Assembly: GCF_030064675.1 (NCBI RefSeq)
Contig: NZ_CP116413.1
Coordinates: 3,008,001 to 3,072,000, forward strand
Reading direction: 5' to 3'
DNA: 64,000 nt
Source: Crossiella sp. CA-258035
Lineage (GTDB): Bacteria; Actinomycetota; Actinomycetes; Mycobacteriales; Pseudonocardiaceae
This document shows, piece after piece, positions 40,023 to 57,490 of the stretch. Both the position numbers and the translations under genes were made by a program. The notes below the pieces were generated by a model that ran no database searches, was not told the origin of the DNA, and saw nothing but the letters and a program-made list of their open reading frames with translations. Within the stretch, counting starts at the first letter, position 1, and each line of letters opens with the position of its first letter.

Positions 40023-40993
40023 CCGCCTCGGTCAAGGACGAGCTGAGCCGTCTCACCGTCACCAAGACCTGCTGCCGCCGCGCCGAGGTGTCCTCGCTGC
40101 TGCGCTTCGCCGGCGGCCTGCACATCGTGGCAGGGCGCGTGGTGGTGGAGGCCGAGATCGACACCGGCTCGGCCGCGCGCAGGCTGCGCAAGGAGATCCA
40201 GGAGCTGTTCGGCCACATCAGCGACGTGCACGTGATCACCTCCGGCGGCCTGCGCAAGGGCACCCGGTACGTGGTCAGGGTGGTCAAGGACGGCGACGGG
40301 CTGGCCCGCCAGACCGGCCTGATCGACCCCAGGGGCCGCCCGGTGCGCGGCCTGCCCGCGCACGTGGTCAGCGGCGGCACCTGCGACTCCGAAGCCGCCT
40401 GGCGCGGCGCCTTCCTCGCGCACGGCTCACTCACCGAACCGGGCCGCTCCTCCGCCCTGGAGGTCACCTGCCCCGGCCCCGAGGCGGCCCTCGCGCTGGT
40501 CGGCGCGGCCCGCCGCCTGGGCATCCAGGCCAAGTCCCGTGAGGTCCGCGGCGCCGACCGGGTCGTGGTCCGCGACGGCGACGCCATCGGCGCGCTGCTG
40601 ACCAGGCTCGGCGCCCACTCCAGCGTGCTGGCCTGGGAAGAACGCCGGATGCGCCGCGAGGTGCGGGCCACCGCCAACCGCCTGGCCAACTTCGACGACG
40701 CCAACCTGCGCCGCTCCGCCCGCGCCGCGGTCGCCGCCGCCGCCAGGGTCGAACGAGCCCTGGACATCCTCGGCAACGAGGTCCCCGACCACCTGGTCGC
40801 CGCGGGCCAGCTCCGCCTGGCCCACCGGCAGGCCTCCCTGGAGGAGCTCGGTCAGCTGGCCGAACCGCCGATGACCAAGGACGCGGTGGCGGGCCGGATA
40901 AGGCGTCTGCTGGCCATGGCGGACAAGAAGGCCCGCGAGCTCGGCGTCGGCGACACCGAGAGCGCGGTCACCGCGGACATGCTGGACGCCTGA
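40013..40993 (+). CDS. whiA: Sporulation/cell-division regulator WhiA
   Basis: 326 residues. The N-terminal LAGLIDADG-like fold starts [25 protein letters not shown] with [12 protein letters not shown]; the centre has [24 protein letters not shown]. The C-terminal HTH has the WhiA signature [31 protein letters not shown] and the [12 protein letters not shown] end. ATG 40013 follows AAGGAGGG; an ATG two codons later is an alternative. In Streptomyces WhiA acts with WhiB on division genes. Last gene of the uvrC operon. Chromosomal neighbours would normally be gap-pgk-tpiA. Confidence 0.96.
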
Positions 40994-41113
40994 ACGGTCC
41001 GTTCGCTGTCCCCGCCCGGCATACCGAGCCCGCGGGTACCGCGAGCCAGGTCGGGAGGTTTGTTCAGGCAGGGGTAACCGCTCTGACCTGATAGGCCAGC
41101 TCGGGTAGCGGTG

Positions 41114-41150
41114 TGCTGGGCCCGGCCGGAAGTTGCGGCCGGGCCCAGCA
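41114..41150. terminator. Hairpin terminator between whiA and the peptide locus
   Basis: Perfect 15-bp arms (TGCTGGGCCCGGCCG and CGGCCGGGCCCAGCA), 7-base loop. On the plus strand it is followed by a pyrimidine-rich run ending CTCTTTTGTT, so it terminates whiA-side transcripts; it also lies 20 bases past the peptide stop on the other strand. Confidence 0.82.
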
Positions 41151-41169
41151 TCTTCCCCTCTTTTGTTGG

Positions 41170-41238
41170 CTAGGCGCGGTCGCCGGTTCCGCCGCCTCCG
41201 CCAACTTCGACGCAGGAGATGATCTGGGTGGTGGACAT
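41170..41238 (-). CDS. 22-residue peptide gene (putative signal peptide or RiPP precursor)
   Basis: A 22-codon frame begins ATG at 41238, preceded by AAAAAGGAGAAC, the strongest ribosome binding site in this neighbourhood at 7-8 nt spacing. It starts MSTTQIISC and its second half is glycine-rich (VGGGGGTG), ending in Asp-Arg-Ala. It lies 18 nt after the glycosyltransferase-like gene, on the same strand, and is followed by a strong hairpin. One Cys, two Ile, Thr/Ser-rich head, no secretory signal. Too short for standard gene finders. A modified peptide or a signal for the divergent TPR regulator is inferred; the protein family is not recognised. Confidence 0.6.
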   Translation of the reverse strand: MSTTQIISCVEVGGGGGTGDRA

Positions 41239-41256
41239 ATCGTGTTCTCCTTTTTC

Positions 41257-42414
41257 TCAGGTGTCGGCCACTGCTTGTCGGGCCGAGTCAGTGATCCGCA
41301 GCAGGCGGAGGCACCCCGCGCGTAGCAGGTCTGCGGACCTGCTCGGGGCGGAGGTGACAAGCTGGGCCACGGGGGAGCTGGGGCGAGCCGTCCAGTTGAT
41401 CTGAGTACCCAGCGGCACAGCCGGATCCAGGGGCGTGCCGTATCGGGCGACTGCCTCTCCCAGCGAGCAGGGCGCGGTGTTCGGCAGCGGGTTGGCCAAG
41501 TACACGGGTTTCCCGGCGGCCGCGGCGTACGCGGTGAGCAGGCCGTGATCGCCGATGACGTAGTCCGCCGCCGCAACCGGAACCTGCCACCCTTGCCCGA
41601 GGCGCAGGAACCGCACGTGGGACCGTGCCGCGGGCCCGGCCCAGGCAAGTACCTGGCGTCTGCCGTGCCGCACCCACACGTCCGGGTGCAGGTGGCATAT
41701 CAACCGGTCTCCCGATGCGGGCAAGTCGGTGGCGATTCGCCCGAGCAACGCTGGTGACCGGCCGAGCAGTGACTCTGGTCCTCGGGTCGACACCACGAGA
41801 CCCAATCGCTGGTCTTGCTGGACCCCGAGTCGGTCCCGATGAGCGTTCCGGTGGCTGAGGGCGTCGAGCAGGTGGTCGTACACGGGATCGCCCACGACGG
41901 TGGCGTGGCGCCCGATCTCCGGCGAGGTGGATTGAAGCGAGGCCACCGCGGTGCTGTGCGGCAGACCGATGACCATCGCATCGGGGTGCTCCACCCGTTG
42001 GCGGAACAGGCCGCTGAGGGAGGGCAGGCATCGCCGGCCGTTGTGGTCGACGACCTCGCCGTCGGTGGACACTTCGGGCAACAGCAGCAGCGCTCCCTGC
42101 AACCTGCCGACGCCGGTCGGACTGGCAGCAATCACCAGGTCGAACCGTTCGTGCGCCGCGCGTTCCCACGGGGTGATGAGTGCGTCAGCAGCGGTGAGGA
42201 AATCCGCAACCCGGTCATCCGACGGGCCCGGAGGCTGCGTGAACACGACCTGGACCCCGGGCACTCCCTCGACGGCGTTGGCGGCCGCGAGCATCCGTTC
42301 CCCTGCACCGACGCTGTGCACGACGACCAGTACCACCCGGCGCGTCCCACACGTCTGCACGCCGCTCGCGGTTGCCCACCACGGCGTCAGGTGACGTGGA
42401 TTCCGCAATCCCAT
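41257..42414 (-). CDS. GT-B glycosyltransferase-like / CDP-glycerol glycerophosphotransferase-like protein
   Basis: 385 residues, soluble. Motifs that recall the actinobacterial glycerophosphotransferase-like GT-B family: VVVHSVGAGERMLAAANAVE at the N-terminus, IGLPHSTAVASLQ at about residue 150, VVGDPVYDHLLDAL at about 175, LHPDVWVRHG at about 245 and YVIGDHGLLTAYAAAAGKPV at about 290. The donor and acceptor are unknown. ATG 42414 follows AGGAGGG. Together with the 22-codon gene 18 nt downstream it forms a two-gene operon, so it may glycosylate or otherwise modify the peptide, or an associated envelope polymer (inference). Divergent from a SARP-like regulator. Confidence 0.65.
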   Translation of the reverse strand: MGLRNPRHLTPWWATASGVQTCGTRRVVLVVVHSVGAGERMLAAANAVEGVPGVQVVFTQPPGPSDDRVADFLTAADALITPWERAAHERFDLVIAASPTGVGRLQGALLLLPEVSTDGEVVDHNGRRCLPSLSGLFRQRVEHPDAMVIGLPHSTAVASLQSTSPEIGRHATVVGDPVYDHLLDALSHRNAHRDRLGVQQDQRLGLVVSTRGPESLLGRSPALLGRIATDLPASGDRLICHLHPDVWVRHGRRQVLAWAGPAARSHVRFLRLGQGWQVPVAAADYVIGDHGLLTAYAAAAGKPVYLANPLPNTAPCSLGEAVARYGTPLDPAVPLGTQINWTARPSSPVAQLVTSAPSRSADLLRAGCLRLLRITDSARQAVADT

Positions 42415-42462
42415 GTCGCTTTCCCTCCTGGGGCTGGCTCGGATGAGAACAGCGTCGCAAGC

Positions 42463-42496
42463 AGGTGTTGGAGAAGGTGTTGGGAAAGTGTTGGGA
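42463..42496. promoter_or_regulatory. Three direct repeats, probable SARP binding site
   Basis: Three copies of (A/G)GTGTTGG start at 42464, 42476 and 42487, spaced 12 and 11 bp, each followed by G/A-rich bases. Direct heptamer repeats with about 11-bp period are the known binding pattern of SARP winged-helix regulators. Placed between the divergent GT/peptide operon and the SARP-like regulator gene. Confidence 0.65.
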
Positions 42497-42544
42497 GCCA
42501 GGGTGGGAATCCCAACGGGGCGTGGTCTGGTTCACTTGATTGCG

Positions 42545-45304
42545 ATGAGCGAACAGGCGATCGAACTGCAGGTGCTCGGTACCGTGCGACTCGTGGTGAA
42601 CGGCAAGCCGGTGCCGCTGGAGCCACGTCTGTCCACCGTCCTCGCGATTGCGGCGGTTCTGGATGGACAGGTTGACTCTGACGACTTGGCCGCACGGTTC
42701 GACGCGTCCAGGACGACCGTGCGCGGCTACGGGACGATGCTGCGGCGTCGCGCGGGATTCGACCTGGTGAAGAAGAATCAGAATTCCATTCTGCGACTTG
42801 CACTTGGCCGGGAACAGGTCGACCTCTGGCGCTTCAACGCGCTGGTGGCCGAAGCGAGAAGCACGTCAGCAGACCAGAAACTCCGGTTCCTCCTCGCGGC
42901 GACGGAGCTGTGGCAAGGTCCTCCATTGGCCGGCCTGGATCCGCGATTGGTGGAAAGAGAGATAGGGGGGCTGCGGGCCGCTGGACGCCGGGTGTTCCTG
43001 GATTTGATCAGGCTCTGCGCTGCGCAGAAAGGAGCGGAACCGGCCATCGTGCACGCGGAGCGCGCCAGCAAGCTGTTTGCGGACGATGACGAGACCCGGG
43101 AAGTACTGTGGGATCTGTGGTCCCAGTGCGGCCAGGCACAGGCGATCATGGACGACCTGCGTAAGGTGGAAGACGAGCGCAGGCAGTTGGGTTCGCCATT
43201 CACCGGGCTGCGGAGGAAGGCCAAGGCGTTCATCAGCCAGGCGCGGCGGGTGGCCAAGACGAGACCGGCAGGGCAGCCATACCAGCTGCCGCCCATCCGA
43301 GCGGACTTGCGTGGACGCGGTGCCGAACTCGCTGTGCTGGGCGAGTTGATCGTCCCCGACAGCGGAGTTCAGGTCGTCTCCATCAGCGGTCTAGGTGGTC
43401 TGGGCAAAACTGAACTGGCGGTGCAATGGGCGCACTCTGCGCTTGACCACTTTCCGGACGGGGTCCTTTTCGTGGACCTGCAGGGCTACTCCCCAGTCGG
43501 GCCGACAGAGCCGGCGGCCGTGCTGACCGGGTTCGTCAATGCTCTCGACCCAATGCGAACCAACTGGGGGCACGGTGATGTGCTGGCCGCGTACCGGACG
43601 TTGGTGAACACCCGCGCCGTGCTGGTCGTCATCGACAACGCCCGTGATCACCAGCATGCTGCGGACTTGGTGGCGGCGGGAGAGCGCAGCCGCACCGTCA
43701 TCACAACGCGGGCGGCCGTTACCGCTCCGGCCGTCGCGCGTGGTCGGACGTTGCCACTACGGCCGCTCACAGTTGATGCCTGCCTGGCCGTGCTGCGGGA
43801 TTCAGTCGGTGTAGCTTGGGCCCGGACCAACCCCTTCGCGGTCCGAAACTTGATGGCGGTTTGCGGGGGATTCCCGCTGGCAGTCAAGCTCGTCGCTGCA
43901 CAGGCGCACCTGAACAAGGACCCCACGTTCGAGCGGGTGTTGGCCAGACTGGGTTCGCCACATGCGTTGCTGGGTGCGAAACCCGACGGGGAGGCCAAGT
44001 TGCATGATTCACTGAAGTTTTCCTACGAGCTGCTCTCGCCCGAGGCAGCATGGGTGCTGCAAGTCATCGCGATCCATCCCGGTCCGACCATCGCCTGGGA
44101 TGTTGTCGGCTTCCTTTCCGGGCTCCCCGAGCACACGGCGGACGAAGCCATTGATGAACTCCAGCGTGGCAATCTGCTGGACTCGCTGCCGGACAACCGT
44201 TACCGCGTTCACGACTTCGTCCGGGCGTTCGCTTTGAAGCGCGCTACGGCGGAACGTGGAGACCTGGCCGTGGCCGAGGTGCGGAAGCGGCTGCTGGGGT
44301 GGTTGCTGGCGTCCGCGCAGCAATGCGATCGGGCGCTCCGTTCGGGCCGGGAACTCCCTGATGACCTCTGTGCCGATGAGGGCGCGCCGCTTCCCGAGCC
44401 GGCGGACGACGCCGAGGGGAGCCGTTGGTTCGAACGCGAGCACGCCACACTGCTCGCGGTGCTCGACTCCCCGGATTTCCAGACCTTCACAGCTTACCGG
44501 TGGCGGTTGCCACTCGCGTTGTGCTGTTACCACACCCGCAACGGTCCGTGGCTCACCGCGGAGCGCCTGCTGGCCTCGGCGTACGAGATCCCCAAAGATG
44601 AGCTGGACGAGCGGGAGCGAGTCCGTTACCAAGCCGTATGCCACCGGGTGCTGGGCAACATCCAGCGAAAACTCGGTAAGAGCGGTGCGGCAGAGCACAA
44701 CCTGACTACCTCGATCGCCCTCGCCAGCAGCATCGGCGATCCGCTGGAAGTGGCCAACGGGCACCAGCAGATGGGGGTCCTCCAGGAGGACAAGGGGCAG
44801 TGGGAGACGGCACGTCGGCACATGATGATCGCCGGAGACCTCTACGAGAATCTCAAGGACGAGCGCGGCCTGGCGGCCACCCTTCCCACCGAGATCCACT
44901 GCCACCTCCAACTGGGAGAACCGGAACGCGCGCTCGAGCGGGAGGAGTTCGCCGTTGCGGTGATGGCACGTGCCAGCACCCCGTACAACCAGGGTGCCCT
45001 GCATCGCGTCCTGATGAGCTGTTATCTGCGGGTGGAGCAGGACACCGAGGCCATCGCTCACGGCGAGGCGGCACGAGCCTGCTATGTCGAATCCAACTCG
45101 CCGGTCAACGAGGCGCGGGTGCTCAGCGGCCTGGCCCACGTGTATCGAGCGGCGGGGCGTATTGAGGAGGAAAGGGACGCACTGCTGAGCTGCTTGGCCA
45201 TCTACCGGCGACGAGGTTCCGCGAACGAGTTGAGTGCCGAGGACAGATCGATCCGCAAAGCTGTGGAGAACCGGCTCGTGGAACTGGCCGGAAGTGGTGG
45301 CTGA
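42545..45304 (+). CDS. SARP-like regulator with NB-ARC and TPR domains (AfsR type)
   Basis: 919 residues. An N-terminal winged helix (IELQVLGTVRLVVNGKPVPLEPRL) is followed by a bacterial-transcriptional-activation helical domain (about 90-240, QVDLWRFNALVAEARS, ELWQGPPLAGL). An NB-ARC ATPase has P-loop ISGLGGLGKTELAVQW at about 280 and Walker B VLVVIDNARDH at about 360. TPR repeats run from about 600 to the end. Such proteins combine DNA binding with ligand or peptide sensing. ATG 42545 chosen; the longer frame upstream runs through the repeats. Codon third positions look less GC-biased than neighbouring genes, hinting at acquisition. Convergent with the pPIWI-RE gene 6 bases away. Confidence 0.87.
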   Translation: MSEQAIELQVLGTVRLVVNGKPVPLEPRLSTVLAIAAVLDGQVDSDDLAARFDASRTTVRGYGTMLRRRAGFDLVKKNQNSILRLALGREQVDLWRFNALVAEARSTSADQKLRFLLAATELWQGPPLAGLDPRLVEREIGGLRAAGRRVFLDLIRLCAAQKGAEPAIVHAERASKLFADDDETREVLWDLWSQCGQAQAIMDDLRKVEDERRQLGSPFTGLRRKAKAFISQARRVAKTRPAGQPYQLPPIRADLRGRGAELAVLGELIVPDSGVQVVSISGLGGLGKTELAVQWAHSALDHFPDGVLFVDLQGYSPVGPTEPAAVLTGFVNALDPMRTNWGHGDVLAAYRTLVNTRAVLVVIDNARDHQHAADLVAAGERSRTVITTRAAVTAPAVARGRTLPLRPLTVDACLAVLRDSVGVAWARTNPFAVRNLMAVCGGFPLAVKLVAAQAHLNKDPTFERVLARLGSPHALLGAKPDGEAKLHDSLKFSYELLSPEAAWVLQVIAIHPGPTIAWDVVGFLSGLPEHTADEAIDELQRGNLLDSLPDNRYRVHDFVRAFALKRATAERGDLAVAEVRKRLLGWLLASAQQCDRALRSGRELPDDLCADEGAPLPEPADDAEGSRWFEREHATLLAVLDSPDFQTFTAYRWRLPLALCCYHTRNGPWLTAERLLASAYEIPKDELDERERVRYQAVCHRVLGNIQRKLGKSGAAEHNLTTSIALASSIGDPLEVANGHQQMGVLQEDKGQWETARRHMMIAGDLYENLKDERGLAATLPTEIHCHLQLGEPERALEREEFAVAVMARASTPYNQGALHRVLMSCYLRVEQDTEAIAHGEAARACYVESNSPVNEARVLSGLAHVYRAAGRIEEERDALLSCLAIYRRRGSANELSAEDRSIRKAVENRLVELAGSGG

Positions 45305-45310
45305 GGCGCT

Positions 45311-48187
45311 TCAACTCGTAGGGAACTCCGCCGCGAGGTCATTCGGTGAATCGGGGTCTGGCGCGTCCTCCTCGTCCGCCTTCCGCATCGGCAGGATGTA
45401 CTCCTGTGCTTTCCGGGCCAGGTGCAAGGGCAGCGGTCTGCGGAGCGCGTTGCGGTAGTCCGGAGCTTGGCGCAGCTGGTGGACGGCCATCGCCAGCGCG
45501 TGCGGATCGTCGCCCTCACTGGGGTGGCAGCTCAGTACCGCGATCTCTAGCAGGTCGGGGTTCCACGCCGGCTGGTCGACGTCGATGGTCCACTCACCCG
45601 CGCGCTCACCCCGGCGCAGCTGCCGCCGCTGCAGCTTGTGCGCCTCCACCGCAGAGTGCTGGGCGGTGGAGGCCTTCGGCGTGGTGCTGTAGAAGACCCT
45701 GTTGTCCTCCAGTCCGCTGACAGCCCACAGGTTGCTCGGCAGGCCGTTCACCCCGTCCTCGCTGGCAAGCCCCCACCACTGTGGTGTCTCCCGCTGGTCC
45801 CCGGTCCGTACCCGCACCAGCCGCAGCCAGGGATTCGGGCGGCCTGCGGGTGCCAGGCCGGTACGGATGAGGTCCCGTTCCACTTGACCGTCCTGCACCC
45901 ACGTCCACAGGAACCTGATGTTCTGCGCGTCGACCATGAGGACGGTGGGTCTCCCACGTACATGGTCTGAGGACAGCACTCGGTGCAGGAACTCCTCGGT
46001 CGCGGACCGTTGTTCATCCAAAGATCTCGACCAGTCGAACCACGGCGCGTCCTGTTCGCCCACGTCCGCCAGGTCGTGGTCGGAGATCGCCGCGAGGGCG
46101 GGTAGCCGGGTCAGGTAGCGCGGGTAGTCCGTCCACGTCCCCAGTCCGGCGAGCGCGTCAGCGTCCCAGCCGAGCACCGCGCCTGGCCCATCGAGTCCGG
46201 GACGCACCAGCACGGCAACCGGGAACTTCCCTTTGGCCGAGTGCGCGGTGCTGCCGCGGGCTTTCGTCGCCATCCAAATCGCGAGGTACTGGGTCTGTGC
46301 AGGCGCTCCGGCAGGGATGTCGGTGAGCGGGACAACCGTGGCGCCCAGTTGGCGGATCGCGTCGAGCCAGGAGGACTCGGCTGCCTCCGGCAGCGAGTTC
46401 ACTGCGCGGGTTGAGGAGGGCGAGACGATGAACTGCGTGACGGCTCCGCTGTCCGAGGAGCCCAACCGCAACGCGAACTTGGGGTCGTTCGGACCGCGGA
46501 ACGCGGTCCTTCCCGGGATCTCCACGATCGCGACCGACGGCACCGCCGCGTTCGCGCCATCCTTGGCCAGGAACTCGGCCATGTCCGCACGGCGCTTCCG
46601 GACAGCTCGGGCCGCCCGGTCGGCCCGGCCCGTGGCCGGCTCGAAGGCCACCCCCAGGCTGTCCGCCAATCCGTTGTCCATGCGCAGACAGTTGAGCGTC
46701 ACCACCAGCTCCGGTGACTGCCACCGAAGCACCACGGGGTGCCCGCGGCCGCTGCGGTCGTGGGCCTGCTGAGTTACCTGGCCCGCACCACCGTCCCCGG
46801 TCAAGCCGAGCACAGTGGCAAGCGCGGCCAGTACAGCGTCACGAGTGGGTTCGGAACGCCACAACAGCCGAGTGGTGAACTCCGGCGTGCCGGACCACTC
46901 CGCGTAGAGCGCGGCCAGCGACAGACGGCGGGCACGTTGCAATTCAGCCTTGGCCGCCGCGGTGCGTTCGCGGGATCCTCCCAAGCGGGCGTTGGCCGGT
47001 TTGGTGGCCAGGAGCGGGGACCTCCTGAGGTCGTCGACCCGGGCCAGTTCTGGCGCCAAGGCACGTTCGGCCCACTTGACCAAACGCGATCGTTCATGGG
47101 GCATGAATCCAGTGCCCACGCCGTGCTCACCCATGTGGGTGTTGTGCACGACCAGTGCGTCAACGCCTCGGTGACCCTCGAACCATCGTTGCGGTTCACT
47201 GAGCAGACTGGTGGGGTCGGGAAAGGGTCGGCTGTTCAGCGCAAGCCGCTCCATGAGCTGTGCCGGATCCCCGGCTCGCCACGCGTACCCGTCTCCGCGC
47301 CGTACTACGCGGGCAATGCTGTACCGGTCGCTGACGGGGACTCCGGGGAGCCATGGCGCTACTGGCCGCAGGTACACGGCGCTGCCACGCCGGAAACCCA
47401 GGCGCAGCAACCCGGTTGCCGGATCTGGATGCGTCGCCCACCGGCGTACCCCGAAACTCAGGTGCACTCTGGGCCGAGGATGGAACGGCACCGTCTGTAA
47501 CGTGATTGTGGCGGTCACCGAGAACCACCAGCGGCGGCCGTGTTTGTCATCGTGGGGGAGCGGCTGAGACATCACCTCTGCCCCCTGCTGGCGGGCTTGG
47601 CGTGCCACGGAGCGGAAATGCAGCTCGTGCTCACCCGAGCAGTAGGGTTCCAGGGCCTGGATGCGCCGGGCGAAGTGTTGGGTGGCCAACAGGTACTGCA
47701 CACCGCTCGGTTGCGCGGTACCGCCACCGCTGAGAGCGCATTGGAGCAGAGGTACGTCCTGTCGGCGCCAGACAGGCGCATGCTGCCGCAGTGCCTGGTG
47801 CACTTGGGCAACCGCATCCGCGTGATGCGGGTCTGGCTGCAGCTCGTCGATCCAGAATTCCAGAATTCGCAACAGGATCGGCACCGGCAGCGGTCCGCCA
47901 GGCGCGTCCACCGGGCAGTACAGCCATGCCCGAGAACCCTCCTGAGCCGCGACCGAGCGCGGCAGGACCCCGAGGCGCAGGTCCAGGGCCTGGAGCAAGT
48001 AGTCCAAGCGACGGGTTGGCGGCACCAGCACGCGGGCCCGGCCTTCTCTGGTGAGGTTGCAGAGCTCGAGCACTTGCTGGACCACGGGTTCCGGGAACTC
48101 CAACGTGTGGTAGCCGACGGTCAGCCCGCGGTAGTCCCCGGAAGGTTCGTACGCCGCCCGGCGTATCTCCGTGTAGCGCGGAGCCAC
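45311..48187 (-). CDS. pPIWI-RE family Argonaute-like protein
   Basis: 958 residues. The N-terminal two thirds match the X region plus MID-like part of pPIWI-RE proteins (ALVVHNTHMGEHGVGTG, RSEPTRDAVLAALATVLGL). The C-terminal third is an RNase H-fold PIWI-like domain (RPTVLMVDAQNIRFLW, VFYSTTPKAST). The family's signature Glu and Arg are seen as LLEIAVL at about residue 881 and AVHQLRQAP at about 906, followed by PLPLHLARKAQEYILP. The family was predicted by comparative genomics as an RNA- or DNA-guided anti-invader system (established knowledge). Last gene of the four-gene operon, 3 bases after the helicase; GTG 48187. Confidence 0.85.
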   Translation of the reverse strand: MAPRYTEIRRAAYEPSGDYRGLTVGYHTLEFPEPVVQQVLELCNLTREGRARVLVPPTRRLDYLLQALDLRLGVLPRSVAAQEGSRAWLYCPVDAPGGPLPVPILLRILEFWIDELQPDPHHADAVAQVHQALRQHAPVWRRQDVPLLQCALSGGGTAQPSGVQYLLATQHFARRIQALEPYCSGEHELHFRSVARQARQQGAEVMSQPLPHDDKHGRRWWFSVTATITLQTVPFHPRPRVHLSFGVRRWATHPDPATGLLRLGFRRGSAVYLRPVAPWLPGVPVSDRYSIARVVRRGDGYAWRAGDPAQLMERLALNSRPFPDPTSLLSEPQRWFEGHRGVDALVVHNTHMGEHGVGTGFMPHERSRLVKWAERALAPELARVDDLRRSPLLATKPANARLGGSRERTAAAKAELQRARRLSLAALYAEWSGTPEFTTRLLWRSEPTRDAVLAALATVLGLTGDGGAGQVTQQAHDRSGRGHPVVLRWQSPELVVTLNCLRMDNGLADSLGVAFEPATGRADRAARAVRKRRADMAEFLAKDGANAAVPSVAIVEIPGRTAFRGPNDPKFALRLGSSDSGAVTQFIVSPSSTRAVNSLPEAAESSWLDAIRQLGATVVPLTDIPAGAPAQTQYLAIWMATKARGSTAHSAKGKFPVAVLVRPGLDGPGAVLGWDADALAGLGTWTDYPRYLTRLPALAAISDHDLADVGEQDAPWFDWSRSLDEQRSATEEFLHRVLSSDHVRGRPTVLMVDAQNIRFLWTWVQDGQVERDLIRTGLAPAGRPNPWLRLVRVRTGDQRETPQWWGLASEDGVNGLPSNLWAVSGLEDNRVFYSTTPKASTAQHSAVEAHKLQRRQLRRGERAGEWTIDVDQPAWNPDLLEIAVLSCHPSEGDDPHALAMAVHQLRQAPDYRNALRRPLPLHLARKAQEYILPMRKADEEDAPDPDSPNDLAAEFPTS

Positions 48188-48190
48188 AGG

Positions 48191-51100
48191 TCACCCCTTC
48201 CCTGCTTCGGTGAAGTCGTGGTCCAGGTCGGCTTGGTCGAGCATGGCGCACAGCGCCCGGTAGACCGGCTCGTACAGCAGTCCCGCGAGGCGCAGGTCCG
48301 CCAAAGGGAGTTGCTCGTCGCCCGGTCCCGGGTCGAAGTAGGGGCGCAGCGCGTCCCGGATGGCGTGCAGCAAGCTGGTCCGGGCGGTGTCGCGTGGCGG
48401 GCGCTTCTTCCGGGCCCCGAGCGCCTGGGCTGCGGCTCGCCCGCGGGCGAACTGCGCGTCCACGAACACGACCCGGGCAGCGACCCCGCCGCGGACGAGC
48501 CGGCCGATCACTTGCCAGAGAACGACCAGCTGGTCCCACGCGAAGGACCGCCTCTCGTCCTCTTTCAGCGAGGCGTAGGCGTAACGGCGGGTCAGAAGAC
48601 GTCCCCACCGGCTTCGAGCCAGGTCGCGGAACTTCTGGGCCGCAGCGTCCAGCGAGTCGTATGTGGAGACCAGTTCGGCCAGTGACCCCGGCTCGGAGTC
48701 CTCCGGTTCACACAACCCACGGATGTATCGGCTTTCCCAGTCGTTGATCGCGAACACCGAGAGGCTCACGTCGGTGGGTACTGGGTGCGGCCTGGTGAGC
48801 AAGAGCGCCACGCCGATCGCCGCCTGGCTGTCCTCGTTCAGGATGTTGTGCCCGCGCTCGATGGCGAGCAGGGGCGCGACCAGGACCCGGGTCATGGCGT
48901 CGTCGGCGAGGTTCGCCACCTCGCCGCGGCGCAACGTCCCAGCTCGGCCTGGATCCTCAGTGCCGCCGTCGATCGCCTCGGCGAGATCAGCGTTGTCCGC
49001 CACGAGTGCTTTGACGTGATCACGCCACTCCGGCATGGCGTGCAACTGATCTGCCACGGCCTGGGCATCCTGGTAGTTGCCGACGAGAAGCAGCGCGCGG
49101 TGCCGCTTGGGATCCGCGACCGCCTGGATCTCTTCCTCCAGCGGCGGCATGCGGCTCGGCCCAGGCCTGCCGAGCTTGTTCACCAAGGCTCGCAGTACGG
49201 ATGGCCTGACCTTGCGGGGCTGTCCGGAAAGGCTGATGGGCTCGCCGTTGTCGTCGTGGAAGAACCGGGTGGTGAACACGGTTTCCCGCAACCGGTTCTC
49301 GGTATCGGCGGAGGGCTGAAGAACAGCGCCCACGGGGATGACGACGTGTGCTCTGCTGGACGTCCCGGCCCAGCTGGTGCCCGACAGCAACAGCACGTGC
49401 GGGCCACCGCGGCCGGTGATGGGGTCAGCTCCCAGGGAAGGTAGGGAGAACAGCAGTTCGCGGCCGACTCCGGTGCATCGGAAGAAGCGCAGCGTGCCTG
49501 TCACCCCGCCACCGGTGGAGTCCTGTTCGTCGACGATGTACTGGAACCCCAGGACGTTGCCCATCGGGGACTCGGGCACCAGTGGCATGTAGTCCAGTGG
49601 CGGCCTGCGGATCAGCTCGTTCTCCGTGATGTCCAGCCGCATCGCGTCCTCCACCTGCGGCCACAGGTAGGTCAGCCGGTCCAGTCGGTGGTGCAGCACG
49701 GACAGCAGCAGCGCGAACTCCAGCTTGCGCACCAAAGGATCGTCCTCGGCCGTGAGAACAGGTTGAGTGCTCTCCGGCAGGCCATGCTCCGTGTCCTTCC
49801 CGATCGCGCGCAGCTCGTCGAGCACCGCACACAGCCGACTCGCGGCGGCTTGCGGGTTCAGCGTGTGCAACAGGTCCTGTGCAGCCGCGGTCAAACGGTC
49901 GGCGGCGGTGTCGTAGGGACCGTTGTCACCCAACGGGTCGTCACGGAACTGGTCGAAGACCGCCTCAGCCTTGCCGCGGGGTGACTGGGCGCGATCCGTT
50001 GGAGCGGGTGGGGCATGATGAGCTGGAGTGGTCTTGCCGACCTTCGCCGAATCGTCCGCCGGGAACAGTTCGGAGAGGATCCCCCTTTGGAGAGTCCAGG
50101 AGTTGAAGTACTCGATCCCCACCCATTCGCGCAGGTCCTCATCCGCGATCAGCATCGAGTAGAGCAGGTTCGTGGCGCTGGTGACCACGGACAGAGCGAC
50201 TTCCCAGTTCCGGACGTTGCGGTTGGACAGCTGCAAGCGACCTTCCTGGGCGAGTTCGCGGATGTTGTGTGTGTGCAGCGCGTCCAGCCACGAGTGAGGG
50301 CCTCGCGAGACGAGCGTGGCCGTTGGTGCGAATATCCTGTCCAGGTTCATCATCACCCGGTCCGCTTCATCGATGACGATGATGTCGCTGCGCAGGCAGG
50401 CCAGTTCGAGTTGGTGTAGGCGTACACCACTGACTTCCGCGGGTACCGGGCTCATGACCAGCGATGCCATCGTGGCGATCCACACGTTCGCGCTGACCTG
50501 GAGCCGGGCGGTGCCGTGCCGCGGGCACTCGTGCCACAACGGACAGCCCCAGGGACGTGGACGGCGGCCGTCGGACTGGCCATCCTCTTCGTAGAGCCGT
50601 GCGCACGGTGCGTCGGCGAACCGGACCGGCCTTTCCGTGGCGCGAAGCGCGTCCAGCGGGCAGACGGTGCTCAGATCACCGAAGCCTTCTTCTTCGTGGT
50701 GCCCGGCCAGCAATAGGTGCCCGTTGGCGGCCAGCCTGCGGTGCAGGGCCTCAACATGCTGTTCGCGAGTTGACGACCCGATCACCGGCACCACCGGAGG
50801 CTTGCGGTCGGCGGTGCGGAATCCGCGGTCGTCCTGGAGGAACTCGCGCAGTTCTTTCGCCGTGCGCAGTTGCTCGGCCACGTCACCCACCACCAGAGTG
50901 ATCCGCAGTGGTTCGGGCCGACGTGTCGCCCATACCGCGAGCACCTTCATCAGGGTGCTCTTGCCCACTCCGACCACACCGACCGCGTGCAGGAGCCCGT
51001 CGAGCCGCAGCCGGTCGCCGTGGGTGAAGTCGTGGCCATGCGCGTCACGGACCAGCAACCGGGTAGACCGGATGCTGGTCTGCCAGTTGGTCCGCGCGTC

Positions 51101-51742
51101 TTCTTTCGTGGCCTGCCTGTCCATCCACGCGGCGACCTCTTCCAGTGCGGCCCAGGACACGTCGATGGGGGCGCCATTCGTGGTGGTGCGAGCTGTCAGG
51201 TTGTGTCGCCCCGACGCGCCTGGCCGAGTCGCGACGTCGTCCGGGATCTCGATCTCCACCCGCTCGTCGTGGTCGAAGTAGTAGAAACGGCCTGCGCCCG
51301 CGGGTGCGAGGTGCCGCTCGACGAAATCGGGCAGCGTTTCCAGAGCTCGGTCGTAGACGTCGAATCGCATGGTCAGCGTCGTCGTCCCGGTCCACTCGAA
51401 CAAGTCGAGACCTTTGGCGACCCGGAAGGCGCGGTGGCTGGCATCCACTGCCTGGTACTCCCGAAGCGCCTGGATCCAAGCTTCCCGCCGGCGCAGGGGC
51501 CACAAGCGGTGCCGGACGCAGGTGATCATCCACTCCTGCTCCGGCTTGGTGGCCAGGCCTGCGGCCTGTGCGAACGGATACCCGCCAAGCAACGCCCACA
51601 CCGAGGTTGGTGGTTGCCCCGCGTCGAGCCGGAGCAGCAGGGTCAGGCCCAGCTCGACCGGGCACAGCACCTCCAACGGCACGCCTAGCCTCGTGGTCTT
51701 GAGCTCTTTGGCGATGTCGGAGTACCACTTACCGCTACGCAT
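48191..51742 (-). CDS. DinG-like Fe-S superfamily 2 helicase of the pPIWI-RE system
   Basis: 1183 residues. The N-terminal 250 residues are specific to the partner helicase of pPIWI-RE. Walker A is VGVVGVGKSTLMK at about 257. Four cysteines at about 350-410 (CPLDALR, DAPCARL, WGCPLWHECPRH) resemble the XPD/DinG iron-sulfur cluster. Walker B is IIVIDEADRVM at about 456 and motif VI WQVIGRLVRGG at about 1077. Expected to unwind target or guide-bearing nucleic acid for the PIWI protein. ATG 51742 overlaps the preceding stop by 8 bases; GGGGAGCG precedes it. The 41 codons further upstream are a shadow of the previous gene. Confidence 0.85.
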   Translation of the reverse strand: MRSGKWYSDIAKELKTTRLGVPLEVLCPVELGLTLLLRLDAGQPPTSVWALLGGYPFAQAAGLATKPEQEWMITCVRHRLWPLRRREAWIQALREYQAVDASHRAFRVAKGLDLFEWTGTTTLTMRFDVYDRALETLPDFVERHLAPAGAGRFYYFDHDERVEIEIPDDVATRPGASGRHNLTARTTTNGAPIDVSWAALEEVAAWMDRQATKEDARTNWQTSIRSTRLLVRDAHGHDFTHGDRLRLDGLLHAVGVVGVGKSTLMKVLAVWATRRPEPLRITLVVGDVAEQLRTAKELREFLQDDRGFRTADRKPPVVPVIGSSTREQHVEALHRRLAANGHLLLAGHHEEEGFGDLSTVCPLDALRATERPVRFADAPCARLYEEDGQSDGRRPRPWGCPLWHECPRHGTARLQVSANVWIATMASLVMSPVPAEVSGVRLHQLELACLRSDIIVIDEADRVMMNLDRIFAPTATLVSRGPHSWLDALHTHNIRELAQEGRLQLSNRNVRNWEVALSVVTSATNLLYSMLIADEDLREWVGIEYFNSWTLQRGILSELFPADDSAKVGKTTPAHHAPPAPTDRAQSPRGKAEAVFDQFRDDPLGDNGPYDTAADRLTAAAQDLLHTLNPQAAASRLCAVLDELRAIGKDTEHGLPESTQPVLTAEDDPLVRKLEFALLLSVLHHRLDRLTYLWPQVEDAMRLDITENELIRRPPLDYMPLVPESPMGNVLGFQYIVDEQDSTGGGVTGTLRFFRCTGVGRELLFSLPSLGADPITGRGGPHVLLLSGTSWAGTSSRAHVVIPVGAVLQPSADTENRLRETVFTTRFFHDDNGEPISLSGQPRKVRPSVLRALVNKLGRPGPSRMPPLEEEIQAVADPKRHRALLLVGNYQDAQAVADQLHAMPEWRDHVKALVADNADLAEAIDGGTEDPGRAGTLRRGEVANLADDAMTRVLVAPLLAIERGHNILNEDSQAAIGVALLLTRPHPVPTDVSLSVFAINDWESRYIRGLCEPEDSEPGSLAELVSTYDSLDAAAQKFRDLARSRWGRLLTRRYAYASLKEDERRSFAWDQLVVLWQVIGRLVRGGVAARVVFVDAQFARGRAAAQALGARKKRPPRDTARTSLLHAIRDALRPYFDPGPGDEQLPLADLRLAGLLYEPVYRALCAMLDQADLDHDFTEAGKG

Positions 51743-52838
51743 GCTCGCTCCCCTCGCTGCGGCGGCGCACCATGGCCGTGAACCCCTCCTCGTCGCGCAC
51801 CTGCGGTTTCCCGTCCGCCATGGCGGCGTGCCGACGCACGATCTCCAGGTAGCCGGGATCGGCACGGGTTCGGTGCTGGGCGACGACCCAGGCCGCGGAG
51901 TCCGTGCCGTGCCGGTCCACCGCGGCCGCGATGGCCTTGCCGAGCAGGGCAGGGCTGTGCCAGTCGACGACCATCACGGTCCAGGTGTGTTCACCGGGTA
52001 CGTCCACCAACAGGTCGCCAGGCCCGTGGACCGGCCAGAGCCTGACACGGACCCCGGGCAGTTCCAGGCCGCTGGCGATGCGCTGTGCCGCTCGATCCGG
52101 CCCGGAGACGAACTGGCGGTGCCTTCTGCTGCCCTGGATCAGGATCTCGGCGTCCCAGTCCAGTGCCTTTCCAGGAGACACCGCCTGACCCGACCGGCAC
52201 TCCTCCCGCTCGCACCACCAGGATTGCTCGGCGGCCGGCCGCAGCGGTGTGCCGCAGTTCGCGCAGGGGTGGACCGCTCCGTCGAGCTGGTACTCGAGAC
52301 CGATCGGGCGGTAGAAGACGCCGAGGTACTCGTCCAGCGTGCCCAGGCTGTTGGTGAAACGCACCTCGTTCAACAGCTTGTTGGTGAGTACCGGGTGTGC
52401 TGCTAACACACCTCGCATCGTGCTGAACGCTGCCGCTTGGTTGCGTTCGGCAGCGAGCCCGGCCATCGCCGACATCTGGCGCGACGCCTCCCGAAACGGG
52501 TTGTCGGTTTCCGCGCAGAGTGCGACTTCATGGCAGAGGGCCGTCGGCACACCTGCGTCCTGGTCGATGAGGTACTCGTCCAGAGAGTAGACGTCGCAGG
52601 GCAGCCTCAATGGCCACTTTCCCAACGGGCGCTGGTATCCCCAGCGGACCAGCTCCGGCACGGATTTGGGGGGTGAGGCATGTCGGCGCAGGCAGTGCAG
52701 CGCGATCCGATCCAGCGCTCGTTGGACCACCGGCGGGTACGGCATCTGGAGTGTGGTGAGGTTCGCGATCTCGTCGATGGCCACCAGGGCGCTCGCCACC
52801 ACACCGAGCAGGCGCTCATCCTCGCTGTCATCGGCCAC
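51735..52838 (-). CDS. pPIWI-RE associated Y/REase-domain protein
   Basis: 367 residues. A helical N-terminal part (about 1-200), a four-cysteine zinc ribbon at about 200-225 (HPCANCGTPLRP, WWCEREECRS) and a C-terminal restriction-endonuclease-like fold (VRLWPVHGPGDLLVDVP, WTVMVVDWHSPALL). In relatives the last stretch carries a catalytic Asp and Lys, as I recall them; here the corresponding positions appear to be Met and Val, so the nuclease may be inactive. GTG 52838 has CAGGAG 10 nt upstream and overlaps the preceding gene by 11 bases. Third component of the conserved pPIWI-RE set. Confidence 0.72.
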   Translation of the reverse strand: MADDSEDERLLGVVASALVAIDEIANLTTLQMPYPPVVQRALDRIALHCLRRHASPPKSVPELVRWGYQRPLGKWPLRLPCDVYSLDEYLIDQDAGVPTALCHEVALCAETDNPFREASRQMSAMAGLAAERNQAAAFSTMRGVLAAHPVLTNKLLNEVRFTNSLGTLDEYLGVFYRPIGLEYQLDGAVHPCANCGTPLRPAAEQSWWCEREECRSGQAVSPGKALDWDAEILIQGSRRHRQFVSGPDRAAQRIASGLELPGVRVRLWPVHGPGDLLVDVPGEHTWTVMVVDWHSPALLGKAIAAAVDRHGTDSAAWVVAQHRTRADPGYLEIVRRHAAMADGKPQVRDEEGFTAMVRRRSEGSEHA

Positions 52839-54411
52839 TGAGCGGAACTCCTGCCTGCTCGGCCACGTGTCGTGAACCGGGTGGACACCACCGCCGGGCC
52901 TCGCAGCTCGCGCATTCCCGTCCAGGGGACGGTTCATAGGCGATGTCGGTCAGCATGGGGCGCACCAGCTCACCGATGACTTCGCGCGCCTCCGCCAGGA
53001 CGGCCGGGTTGCCCGGGTCCACCTGCTCCAGAGCACACCCATCTGAGCGCAACTGCTCCAACTCGACCCGGGATCGAGTGATGTCCCGCCCCAACGCACC
53101 GGATGCCAGCATCAAGACCGCCAATGCCAGCTGGGGCACTTCTCGGAGCAACGGGCGGTTGCGCGGCAGCCTGCGCCCTGCGGTCTTGGTCTCCCGCCAC
53201 ACCCAACCGCCAGAGCGCGGGTACAGGAAATCCGGAGCACCGACGAACACCACCCCCAGCCTCTCGTCGTGGACGACCACGAGGTTCCTGGGTTCGCCGC
53301 GGTACGCCTCGACGTCGGGGTACGGGCACAGCGTGGAGTGCTGGTCCAGCATGCGGACCGCTGTGTGACGGCTCGCTTCGGGCAGCGCGATCACTGCGTC
53401 ATCCAGTGGCTGGCCAGGCGCACACCGATGGAGCGGGGAACCACCTGAGTGACGATTCCGCAGGGTGGTGTCGACGGCCCGGCCCACCGCGATCGCCTGG
53501 TTCTCGGTCACTCCGACCTCACGGATGCGCAGTTGCCTCAGCAGGTGGTACCGCGCAGGGCAGGTGCGGTAGTACCGCAAATCGGTGACGGAAAGCGAGC
53601 GCAGGGATCCGCGGCTTGCGGGGACGTCTGGCAGCAGATCAGCGGCGGGAAGCGCGTCGCACCCCGCCACCAGCGAGCACTCTGCGCAACCGCCGCCTGC
53701 TCGCCGCTCACTGCCGTCGACGATCGCGATGAGCCGTGGCGCTACCTCCACCCGGGCGCGTTCGCGGACCTGCTCGACGGTCCACTCGAGAAGCTGTTCC
53801 GCGACCGGTGACATGGCGCCGAACATGACCACTCGCACCCGGTCGGGTGGCTCCGAACCGCCGAACGCGGCGACGTTGGCCGCCGCCGTGCAGACGTCTG
53901 GAGGGCGCTCCCTCGGGGTGGTGAAACCCAGTAGCCACATCTCCCGGACCGAGTCGTCCGCGGACTTGTACCGGCGCCCCCAGCAGGTCTGCTCATACCG
54001 TTGGACACCCCGGTGGTCCGGGGAATCGCGCCGGTGCCTGATTACCCAGGCGGACCGCACCGGGAGGGGGCACGGGGTATCAGCAGCAGACTGGTGAGCT
54101 CGCCAAGCAGCACGGTAGTTGCGGAATGCCTCGACCGACCACGAGACAAGCCCGTCGTGGGCGGGAGCCGCGTCAGAGCCGAACACCCCTCTCGTCCGCA
54201 CGAGTTCCTCGACGACCTCCCCTTCCGCACATCCGTCGAACTCAACCCGGTCGAGGGCGGACATGAGCGGGCCCAAGGTGAAATCACCCAGCGCGGAAGC
54301 AGCTCGGCGGCGACGTTGCCGCGGCGGGCGCACCTTTATCGCCAACGCCTGTGGGCAGGCCGAAGAACCGATGTCGGTCGCGCTGACGCGCACGATCTGT
54401 CCCTGACCCAT
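52828..54411 (-). CDS. PD-(D/E)XK nuclease of Cas4/RecB type
   Basis: 527 residues. PD-(D/E)XK core at about 400-425: Asp in VGAPDFLYPRSGG and Glu/Lys in VWRETKTAG, with a Gln-Leu helix (VPQLALAVLMLA) that matches motif 3 of RecB-type nucleases. Cysteines cluster at both ends: one in SSACPQAL at the N-terminus and CASCEARRWCPPG at the C-terminus, the arrangement of a Cas4-like Fe-S cluster; a CAECSLVAGC pair lies in the middle. First gene of the operon. Start at 54411 lacks a ribosome binding site, but TAGACA 7 bases upstream could be a -10 for a leaderless transcript. ATG 54456 is possible. Confidence 0.75.
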   Translation of the reverse strand: MGQGQIVRVSATDIGSSACPQALAIKVRPPRQRRRRAASALGDFTLGPLMSALDRVEFDGCAEGEVVEELVRTRGVFGSDAAPAHDGLVSWSVEAFRNYRAAWRAHQSAADTPCPLPVRSAWVIRHRRDSPDHRGVQRYEQTCWGRRYKSADDSVREMWLLGFTTPRERPPDVCTAAANVAAFGGSEPPDRVRVVMFGAMSPVAEQLLEWTVEQVRERARVEVAPRLIAIVDGSERRAGGGCAECSLVAGCDALPAADLLPDVPASRGSLRSLSVTDLRYYRTCPARYHLLRQLRIREVGVTENQAIAVGRAVDTTLRNRHSGGSPLHRCAPGQPLDDAVIALPEASRHTAVRMLDQHSTLCPYPDVEAYRGEPRNLVVVHDERLGVVFVGAPDFLYPRSGGWVWRETKTAGRRLPRNRPLLREVPQLALAVLMLASGALGRDITRSRVELEQLRSDGCALEQVDPGNPAVLAEAREVIGELVRPMLTDIAYEPSPGRECASCEARRWCPPGSRHVAEQAGVPLSGR

Positions 54412-54528
54412 TGTGTTGTCTAGACGGCTTGCACCCTTGCGCTCATCCGGCCTCATCGAAGGGGTTATCGCCGGAAACACCAAAACGCTACATGGGTCGC
54501 ACGATCCGGTCGGCTACGGTTCGCGTTC

Positions 54529-55719
54529 GTGACAAGTGCGGCAGGCAGACGGCGGGCACGATTGAATCCGGGCGTGCTCGTCGGGCAACGGTTCCAGGTA
54601 CGTGAGGAAGCGGGCGAGGGCGGTATGGGGGTCGCCTACAGAGCATGGGACCTGCAGTTGGAGAAGGAGGTGGTTGTCAAGCTCCCGCAATTGCCGGGGA
54701 CAGCTGATCTGGAGCCCGATGCTTACGACCGGACCATGAAGAGGTTCGCACGAGAGGCCCGGGTGCTGCGCCAACTTGAGCACCCGAAGATTCCGGCAGT
54801 GGTCGGCGAAGGTGAACACGGGTCGTTGCCCTACATCGCGATGACCTACATCCGAGGACACAAGCTGACTGCCTACCGCAGGAAGAACGTGCCCAGAAGG
54901 GCAGAGTTTGCTGCCATTGGCACCTCTGTCGGGACGGCCCTGGACGCCTGTCACCAGGAGCAGATTCTGCACCGTGACCTGAAACCCGACAACATCATGG
55001 TTGGTGAGAACGGCGCAGTATACGTGATCGATTTCGGGATTGCGCTGCCGCTGACGAAGGACGCGACAAGTTATACGAAGAACTTCGTGGGAACCGACGC
55101 TTACGCGGCACCAGAACGGTTCCGGAAGGGCGATCAAGTGCAGTCCGACCTGTACAGCCTTGGCTGTGTGTTCTACTTCCTGATCGTCGGCTGGCCGCCG
55201 TTCAACGAGGACAACGGGAAGTCGTTGGAGGAGCAGCACCGCGAAGACCCACCGATTCCGCCGTCGCGGTTCCGCCATCAGGTGCCCCGCGACCTGGAGG
55301 ACCTGACGCTTGCTCTGCTGGCGAAGAACGTCGACAGCAGACCGGGAATCGGCGAGGTGCTCGGGACCCTGAAGCAGTACCTCCCTGCCGAGGGAGGGCT
55401 GGAGCCCAACCCTGTCCTCATGCCGGATGTGACGCTCCCTTATCGCACACCGGACAAGGTCCGTCCGCCGGAAGCGCCCGCCAGGAGCCGGACTAGAGCC
55501 GCGAAGCCCTTCCGCGCCAGCTCGCGGCACGACTTCCTCACCGAGACCGACATCGACGCGACCATCCAGCGCGCACTCGCCGAGCACGACCGCGGCGACT
55601 CCCACGCCGCCGCACAAACCCTGACCGAGCTTCGCCACCACGCGATCGAGAGTTTCGGCGTCGACAACCCCAACCTGGAACCCATCGATGCGGCGCTGAA
55701 CGTGGTGGGCGACCACTGA
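54529..55719 (+). CDS. Soluble Ser/Thr protein kinase (Hanks type)
   Basis: 396 residues. A complete kinase: glycine loop EAGEGGMGVAYRA at about 28, VVKL Lys, HRDLKPDNIM catalytic loop at about 145, DFG in VIDFGIALPL, APE motif in AYAAPERFRKGD. No transmembrane helix, PASTA or sensor domain follows. Instead there is a basic Pro/Arg-rich linker (about 300-325) and a short helical end (about 340-396) with a TPR-like pair. Divergent from the pPIWI-RE operon with 117 bp between starts, so it may regulate or be part of the system (inference). GTG 54529 lacks a strong ribosome binding site. Confidence 0.9.
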   Translation: MTSAAGRRRARLNPGVLVGQRFQVREEAGEGGMGVAYRAWDLQLEKEVVVKLPQLPGTADLEPDAYDRTMKRFAREARVLRQLEHPKIPAVVGEGEHGSLPYIAMTYIRGHKLTAYRRKNVPRRAEFAAIGTSVGTALDACHQEQILHRDLKPDNIMVGENGAVYVIDFGIALPLTKDATSYTKNFVGTDAYAAPERFRKGDQVQSDLYSLGCVFYFLIVGWPPFNEDNGKSLEEQHREDPPIPPSRFRHQVPRDLEDLTLALLAKNVDSRPGIGEVLGTLKQYLPAEGGLEPNPVLMPDVTLPYRTPDKVRPPEAPARSRTRAAKPFRASSRHDFLTETDIDATIQRALAEHDRGDSHAAAQTLTELRHHAIESFGVDNPNLEPIDAALNVVGDH

Positions 55720-55904
55720 TCAGCGTCTGAGAAGCTGAGCATCGTGAGGTGCTAACCCGGTGCGGGTGTGGTCGGGCCAGCCCGCCTGAGCCGAAGCACC
55801 TCGCGACGCCCAGCTCCGCGACGGCCTCGGCAGGGAGCAGATCGAGCAGGCTGCGGATCGCCTCGGCCTCGGACCGAAAACGCACCCAGCGGGGCCGTCC
55901 TGGC

Positions 55905-56291
55905 CTAGGTCGCGGTCCCGAACCGGAGGAACCCCGCCACCCGCGGCGCCAGGGACAGCTCACCCTCGCCGATCCCGTCCCGCACACCGGCCAGCACGTC
56001 CGGCTCCGGCTCGCCGTAGACCTCGAAGCGGTCCACCCGGCAGTGCGCCATCACCTCCTGGATGTAGGGGTCGGCCAGCCGCCAGTGCGCCCGGACCGCC
56101 TCGGAGTCACCGAAGAGCTGGAAGCTGTGCGCGGTCATCCGTTCCTCGTCGATGAAGACCTCGACCATCAGCTGCGGCCCGTGCCGCCGGGCGAAGGCCA
56201 CCGCCTCGGCGATGGCGGCGCGGAACCCGGCCAGGTGGCCCTCGGTGATCCGCATGGTGTTGTGGAAGAGCAGGATGCCGTTGTCGTCCAT
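55905..56291 (-). CDS. Small hypothetical protein, possible dimeric alpha-beta barrel
   Basis: 128 residues, no signal. Pattern of alternating strands and helices (GILLFHNTMRITEGHLAGFRAAIAEAVAFAR, LMVEVFIDEERMTAHSFQLFGDSEAVRAHW) resembles the antibiotic-biosynthesis-monooxygenase (ABM) fold; catalytic residues cannot be assigned. ATG 56291. The 185 bases between it and the kinase contain only a possible remnant frame (SEAEAIRSLLDLLPAEAV on the minus strand). Convergent with the kinase gene and divergent from gap. Confidence 0.65.
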   Translation of the reverse strand: MDDNGILLFHNTMRITEGHLAGFRAAIAEAVAFARRHGPQLMVEVFIDEERMTAHSFQLFGDSEAVRAHWRLADPYIQEVMAHCRVDRFEVYGEPEPDVLAGVRDGIGEGELSLAPRVAGFLRFGTAT

Positions 56292-56416
56292 GGCTCCATG
56301 CTCGAACCTCCACCTCGCTGGAGGGCAAGCGCGGGGGCCTCTCGGTGACCTTGGTCTCTGTCTCGATCAAGCCAGTTCCCCGGGTGGCCGTGACCAGCGC
56401 GATTCCGGCCCGCTAG

Positions 56417-57490
<1,074 letters not shown>

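Follow-up and report, generated by a model that had tools for sequence, protein, structure and literature searches.

We show that a 22-codon gene from Crossiella sp. CA-258035 lies in a clade-specific variant of the actinomycete pPIWI-RE island, right after a gene for a GT-B-type glycosyltransferase-like protein (GT), and that its product is one of a conserved family of peptides in which head and tail vary around a [GS]T[GA]D(x)R core behind glycines. Within the 64,000-nucleotide stretch analyzed here (hereafter the window), the module comprises eight genes and spans positions 41170-55719. A kinase gene is followed by the divergent genes for a PD-(D/E)XK nuclease, an REase, a DinG helicase and a pPIWI-RE protein, then by a SARP-NB-ARC-TPR regulator gene and, divergent from it, the GT and peptide genes. 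We consider it almost certain that the peptide is part of the pPIWI-RE island. An initial annotation of this DNA had read peptide, enzyme and receptor as a self-contained three-gene module. The features it described are confirmed and its interpretation is partly supported, as these genes adjoin a five-gene pPIWI-RE island at 15 of the 16 loci at which the peptide occurs.

The peptide gene (41170..41238, minus strand) is an ATG frame, MSTTQIISCVEVGGGGGTGDRA, with the core behind the glycines. As first described, it begins 18 nt after the GT-like gene; this spacer (41239..41256, minus strand) holds the Shine-Dalgarno sequence AAGGAG at 41252..41247. The strong hairpin reported to follow the gene is also present, as a G+C-rich element with a 15-bp stem and a 7-nt loop (41114..41150, minus strand). 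The 161-nt hairpin region folds with -71.1 kcal/mol and a z-score of -4.05, and none of 200 shuffles is equally stable. At 13 of the 16 clade loci the hairpin after the peptide exceeds six GT control windows in strength.

A conserved short frame beside homologues of the GT-like gene, which the initial annotation had itself named as the test of its proposal, does exist within one GT clade. GTs were chosen by score, using a search profile built from four orthologues with a cut-off of E <= 1e-70, and the peptide was sought afterwards. The profile finds 29 places in 27 of 390 genomes of the family and 2 places in 394 genomes of the class; these 31 places are a lower bound, because the best few candidates per genome were scored. 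Inspection downstream of the GT at all 31 places, window included, reveals an equivalent short frame at 16 (again counting the window), each starting with ATG, encoding 21-37 aa and containing [GS]T[GA]D(x)R. At these loci the ATG lies 14-44 nt past the GT stop and is preceded by a purine-rich site. One of the 16 lies outside the family, in genome G643, and no second member was found among the 35 genomes of the family to which G643 belongs.

The notion that all GT relatives carry the peptide is rejected. No such frame follows the GT at the other 15 of the 31 places (E <= 1e-70), and a separate scan of named genomes finds the peptide behind 3 of 52 GT relatives (G021, G350 and G190), all of them clade members, and no motif peptide behind the remaining 49. 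The GT score is no clean separator of the two groups, since a GT without the peptide reaches 267 bits (L164) and one with it 262 bits (L151).

Alignment of the 16 peptides reveals that M1, T18 and D20 (window numbering) are invariant and that the glycine pair, the Gly/Ala position and the arginine are nearly so; in every peptide the arginine follows the core aspartate directly or one residue later. Examples are the peptides of Kutzneria viridogrisea (MPVIQTFPRSGGGGGTGDRAQSRESG, ending ...GGGTGDRAQSRESG), Amycolatopsis pretoriensis (MSLIRRLVNRAREGGGTGDRVRLGQVAESNPAPAAIC), Actinokineospora inagensis (MKSGSTNNCDGGGNGGGGTGDRVGRNGAR) and genome G321 (MSNTNPSLVRLDGNGGTADSR). The G373 peptide has DGT where the remaining peptides have GGT or GST. 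Heads and tails vary in sequence and length. Of the two traits first pointed out in the window peptide, a glycine-rich second half and a single cysteine, the glycine-rich part is conserved and the cysteine drifts. The MSTTQIISC head, also put forward as conserved, drifts freely; what is kept is the [GS]T[GA]D(x)R core after the glycines.

Frames of this kind often arise by chance in G+C-rich genomes, which could suggest a chance frame, or a conserved DNA or RNA element in place of a peptide. A DNA pattern for GGGGTGDR has matches in 43 of 297 genomes of the family; the reversed-pattern control, which ignores codon bias, is low. Among 30 pattern loci examined, three were judged short peptide frames (the window, G021 and an orphan in G243) and the remainder chance frames; at least two further pattern matches beyond these 30 loci (G190:C10 and G213:C1) are clade peptides. 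Against chance stand the position, the ATG, the purine-rich upstream site and the core, which recur in 16 of 16 loci, and the Gly, Thr, Asp and Arg codons of the core, which differ synonymously between genomes. Taken with these observations, a chance frame or nucleic acid element is hardly credible. The orphan peptide of G243, MKSSSTSRHGYDDEVNSAVSTGSGGNGGGGTGDRSF (L062:9092-9202), is close to that of A. inagensis. The surrounding 18 kb yielded no clade GT, SARP or pPIWI-RE gene, and we read this peptide gene as a relic or an orphan copy.

The GT gene (41257..42414, minus strand) encodes 385 aa. In Pfam the protein has just a sub-cut-off match to Glyco_transf_4 (15.1 of 28.5 bits). An AlphaFold model computed with 36 sequences (pLDDT 89.2, pTM 0.87) nonetheless bears out the original description of a GT-like enzyme: its Foldseek matches include MshA, UDP-GlcNAc 2-epimerases and TagF (best E 1.8e-11), which we take to be GT-B enzymes, and likeness to these proteins points to a predicted GT-B fold. 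The best TM values among the 50 matches listed are 0.57/0.60 (8sxy_A). When the 16 peptide-linked GTs are placed in a tree with 30 further GTs, they group in a single clade with support of 100/100. A plasmid search with the GT returned 7 records, every one below 60% identity.

The HP motif of GT-B enzymes has an active-site role. His 243 of the corresponding HLHP motif (window numbering) is kept in 13 of the 16 GTs and replaced by Asp in three, so activity may not extend to all members of the clade. The three Asp-243 proteins (L172-L174; G350, which is A. pretoriensis, and the genomes G206 and G373), at whose loci the peptide is retained, are possibly a pseudoenzyme branch, judging from this substitution.

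A distant actinomycete GT family, about 30-40% identical to the window GT, likewise sits beside NB-ARC/TPR genes. At 58 of 67 distant GT loci (L063-L080 and L084-L132, some being the same place counted twice) a neighbor matches a SARP model with at least 60 bits. Several of these GTs lie between two SARP-model (NB-ARC) genes. These loci lack the pPIWI-RE core, with no PIWI, DinG, REase or PD-(D/E)XK gene at any of the 67; the motif peptide is absent from the 49 relatives mentioned above. An ORF of at least 80 aa starts within 20 nt of the GT stop in 33 of 52 GT relatives, a small ORF often overlapping the GT, and in some other relatives the GT reading frame extends to about 490-570 aa as a longer fused frame; a further part at that place is thus usual for the GT family.

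These observations bear on a reading that makes the peptide a structural subunit or an inhibitor of the GT-like protein, the latter, possibly a pseudoenzyme, being the real sensor or effector. The co-occurrence of GT and peptide at 16 of 16 loci, the extra part usual behind GTs of the family and the loss of the HP-motif histidine in 3 of 16 would all agree with it. In 13 distant members, however, the small ORF bears no visible similarity to the peptide, and G175-D176, D284, D289 and the H250-G251 region are each kept in 15 or 16 of the 16 GTs, which together make a subunit or inhibitor very unlikely. A related proposal, which sees in the peptide a shortened version of the ORF (about 95-155 aa) behind distant GTs, was rejected, as there was no similarity in the 13 aligned.

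The remainder of the module matches established protein families. The pPIWI-RE gene (45311..48187, minus strand) encodes X, MID and RNaseH domains (Pfam E 3.9e-112, 1.2e-28 and 4.5e-78; PADLOC PprPIWI E 5.2e-245). Upstream of it on the same strand are genes for a DinG-type helicase with pPIWI_RE_Z (48191..51742, longest frame to 51865; PF18155 E 5.2e-48, PprDinG E 3e-240), a pPIWI_RE_Y and REase protein (51735..52838, longest frame to 52937; PF18156 and PF18154 E 1.1e-46 and 8.7e-26, PprRE E 2e-68) and a PD-(D/E)XK nuclease (52828..54264, longest frame to 54483; Pfam E 1.6e-24, PprPDDEXK E 5.5e-119). REase, DinG and pPIWI-RE follow one another with an 8-nt overlap and then a 3-nt gap. Divergent from this nuclease operon is a Ser/Thr protein kinase gene (54574..55719, plus strand, longest frame from 54529; Pfam Pkinase E 9.4e-42, PADLOC PD-T4-6 E 7.9e-67). 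The X/MID/RNaseH protein, the REase with Y and the DinG helicase with Z identify the locus as a pPIWI-RE island.

To place the peptide in its wider context, 16-20 kb were compared around each of the other 15 peptide loci. Counting the window, a GT divergent from a long SARP that adjoins the five-gene pPIWI-RE block is found at 15 of the 16 loci. The pPIWI-RE gene stands tail to tail with the SARP gene in 11 of these 15 (window included), and in the other four (L179-L182) the five-gene block is inverted so that the kinase adjoins the SARP. The sixteenth locus, that of A. inagensis (G190), has the GT, the peptide, a shortened SARP and the kinase with no adjoining nuclease block; on its opposite side, at a distance of about 8 kb, there is a complete pPIWI-RE island that has its own small SARP (L171, L232). 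Beyond the eight genes no window neighbor is common to the loci, and no conserved transporter or peptidase was found; the comparison was made with the window genes, and a gene shared by the other loci and absent here would escape it.

pPIWI-RE itself (PF13032) is present in 77 of 390 genomes of the family. In addition to the peptide loci, we examined 40 loci around pPIWI-RE matches, a subset of all matches in which L232 represents G190. Some of the 40 are cut by contig ends, in about ten the island genes are represented by remote relatives only, and one has no DinG match. A long SARP of the window kind is found in 2 of the 40 (L214, and a degraded one in L224); 12, G190 among them, carry a small SARP (161-325 aa), 16 have a match to the kinase model and 27 a PD-(D/E)XK match. 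L221, with a weak SARP-model match of 54 bits, was not counted as a long SARP, and L213 is uninformative on this point because its contig ends where the SARP would follow. In the 39 loci other than G190 there is no clade GT and no motif peptide, and 11 of the 39 carry the small SARP without NB-ARC-TPR. From these counts, the GT-peptide pair accompanies the long regulator, the form with NB-ARC-TPR, though not without exception: the L214 island (G207) has a strong long SARP and neither GT nor peptide, so the long SARP can do without them. A distant GT lies near the pPIWI-RE island at L251, without a motif peptide, and was taken as unrelated. A second island form is the one with the small SARP (L217, L220, L223, L225, L232, L233, L244, L246 and L248-L251), whose gene is arranged tail to tail with that of a kinase in 10 of these 12 loci.

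The gene divergent from the GT (42545..45304, plus strand) encodes a 919-aa AfsR-like SARP-NB-ARC-TPR regulator, in keeping with the DNA-binding NB-ARC/TPR protein of SARP kind first noted there. On its own the window protein matches NB-ARC (E 7e-10) and TPR_12 (E 6.1e-8) in Pfam and neither BTAD nor Trans_reg_C. Among 15 orthologues, NB-ARC and TPR_12 are matched by all, BTAD by 8 and Trans_reg_C by 5. A profile of the window protein and 14 orthologues, compared with the PDB, matches AfsR over positions 6-648 and EmbR over 4-234; its NB-ARC part matches Apaf-1 and plant NLRs, and the region of about 697-905 matches the TPRs of LGN/PINS. LGN/PINS TPRs bind peptides. The long architecture of OmpR-type DNA-binding domain plus BTAD, NB-ARC and TPR is therefore found at the level of the orthologue set. 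Long SARPs do not always come with GT and peptide, an expectation that L214 and 17 further long SARP loci lead us to reject: within 1.5 kb of these 17 (L264-L280, from 19 further long SARPs) there is no GT or motif peptide.

Three direct repeats in the promoter region between the SARP and GT genes, GGTGTTGG, GGTGTTGG and AGTGTTGG (42464..42494, plus strand; starts 42464, 42476 and 42487), form a putative SARP operator. Its Kutzneria counterpart contains CCCCACG three times, exactly 11 bp apart. Triple repeats with a period of 11 or 12 bp occur in this promoter at 15 of 15 loci and are matched by 0-3 of 100 shuffles, and the same kind of repeat occurs in the kinase/nuclease-operon promoter at 1 of 14 loci. 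These figures come from mononucleotide shuffles, 100 per region, over four periods without correction; G190 was left out, as was one over-long stretch for the kinase/nuclease region. SARPs are described as binding direct repeats spaced by 11 or 22 bp, and the SARP domain of AfsR as being restrained by the NOD and TPR domains of the protein until ATP binding relieves the restraint (PMC10936776, available text).

Kinase, SARP-NOD-TPR activator and a small gene behind SARP-type repeats are also the kinds of parts that make up the AfsK-AfsR-AfsS cascade of Streptomyces, in which AfsK phosphorylates AfsR and AfsR activates the adjacent small gene afsS (PMC10936776, as far as available). By analogy, the peptide could be a tiny SARP-activated protein that regulates unmodified, with the GT making something else or being a passenger of the operon. 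Unlike that cascade, however, the window includes a GT, which accompanies the peptide at 16 of 16 GT-clade loci, and is linked to nuclease genes, and its SARP scores 187.7 bits against a cut-off of 1430 for the AfsR equivalog (NF053617). AfsS is about 63 aa long, and the peptide family, at 21-37 aa, is shorter. An AfsS-like role for an unmodified peptide is, in our estimate, unlikely.

Our preferred reading gives the GT a part in the process. An infection cue would activate the AfsR-like STAND regulator, perhaps tuned by the island kinase, and the activated SARP would bind the direct repeats between its own gene and the GT and turn on GT and peptide. The GT would then move a sugar or a similar group onto the peptide, for which the invariant threonine would be the likeliest acceptor, and the peptide would remain intracellular, acting as a signal or a regulatory ligand. 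We infer this location because the genes shared by the loci include neither an exporter nor a peptidase. The target of the peptide would most plausibly be the SARP-NB-ARC-TPR protein, giving a feed-forward loop, or else the nuclease complex, and its action would set the activity of the pPIWI-RE machinery; the peptide may in this way help to switch or signal the defence.

The steps of this proposal differ in strength. For the chain as far as a signal or regulator that acts inside the cell and comes from a GT-peptide operon under SARP control we see an even chance, and that the GT acts on the peptide is a matter on which we are equally divided. The peptide as ligand of the NB-ARC-TPR protein is a tentative suggestion that we hold with some doubt. 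The most far-reaching version, which we put forward as improbable, is that a GT-modified, ribosomally made peptide serves as a dedicated intracellular alarm signal, produced when the NLR-like SARP-NB-ARC-TPR sensor fires; its Thr-Gly-Asp-Arg core would bind this sensor, or the nuclease complex, and thereby license the Argonaute-like pPIWI-RE nuclease. Such an alarm peptide, if real, would do for this system what nucleotide second messengers do in other phage defences.

A short precursor that adjoins a modifying-type enzyme is also what would be expected if the GT glycosylated a RiPP-like precursor to yield a toxic or secreted glycopeptide acting in abortive infection or as an antimicrobial, and the SARP does match TPR proteins of RiPP systems, those of cyclophanes (HaaT, 145.9 of 1125 bits) and FxSxx (41.4 of 300), far under the cut-offs. 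None of the 16 peptides, though, falls into a Pfam or NCBIfam family or matches a known RiPP precursor family; beyond the eight genes no window neighbor is shared; and, around the short core that is kept, both ends of the peptide differ in sequence and in length. We rate a RiPP-like effector as quite unlikely. RNPP-type receptors, which are small HTH-TPR proteins, resemble the regulator of our preferred reading in that a TPR repeat protein with a DNA-binding domain stands beside a short peptide gene. Unlike that type, the window regulator has a STAND ATPase core. No secretion-type precursor is evident, and no importer is among the window genes shared by the loci.

The paper on the three-gene pPIWI-RE island is that of Burroughs, Ando and Aravind from 2013. 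The available text proposes that these islands act on R-loops of invading DNA, and its section on gene contexts names standalone and three-gene arrangements and no control genes (PMC3702460); the words 'TPR' and 'peptide' have no occurrence in the main text. REase, DinG-type helicase and pPIWI-RE in strict order with overlapping or close ends are common to that island and the window. Compared with the island as described in that section, the window adds the PD-(D/E)XK nuclease, the kinase, the SARP-NB-ARC-TPR regulator, the GT and the peptide. All four PADLOC Ppr models (PprPIWI, PprDinG, PprRE and PprPDDEXK) match the window, with E from 2e-68 to 5.2e-245, whereas the GT matches no PADLOC family, the SARP only a generic TPR model and the kinase PD-T4-6 models. 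The role of the island in defence is a prediction, drawn from the published proposal and the family names; one pPIWI-RE protein is linked to DNA replication in the portion available of a further paper (PMC10991935), a caution that its functions may reach beyond defence.

The literature searched contains no paper that we could find on the combination of pPIWI-RE core, SARP, GT and peptide, and no mention of GGGGTGDR or PprPIWI. In our judgement the three-gene core and the PADLOC models are already known, and the peptide family and its gene combination are new. The window variant brings a whole control layer: besides a kinase and an enzyme, it contains an NLR-like regulator, for which there is a likely operator, and the peptide, some 20 residues long. 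How pPIWI-RE islands are switched on becomes directly testable, and the peptide joins the list of possible defence signals.

Finally, the eight genes are contained in an accessory block (40992..55906) located between whiA and a gene for 128 aa next to GAPDH. The conspecific genome G111 lacks these 14.9 kb as a unit: 14,915 bp in the window correspond to about 90 bp there, and the flanks are 97.9% and 98.9% identical. Two genomes from other species of the genus (G002 and G003) have different genes at the same site, and a third such species (G001) is cut by its contig end at this point. The interval from whiA to GAPDH (40993-56438 of the window; L257, L259 and L260) is an insertion hotspot.
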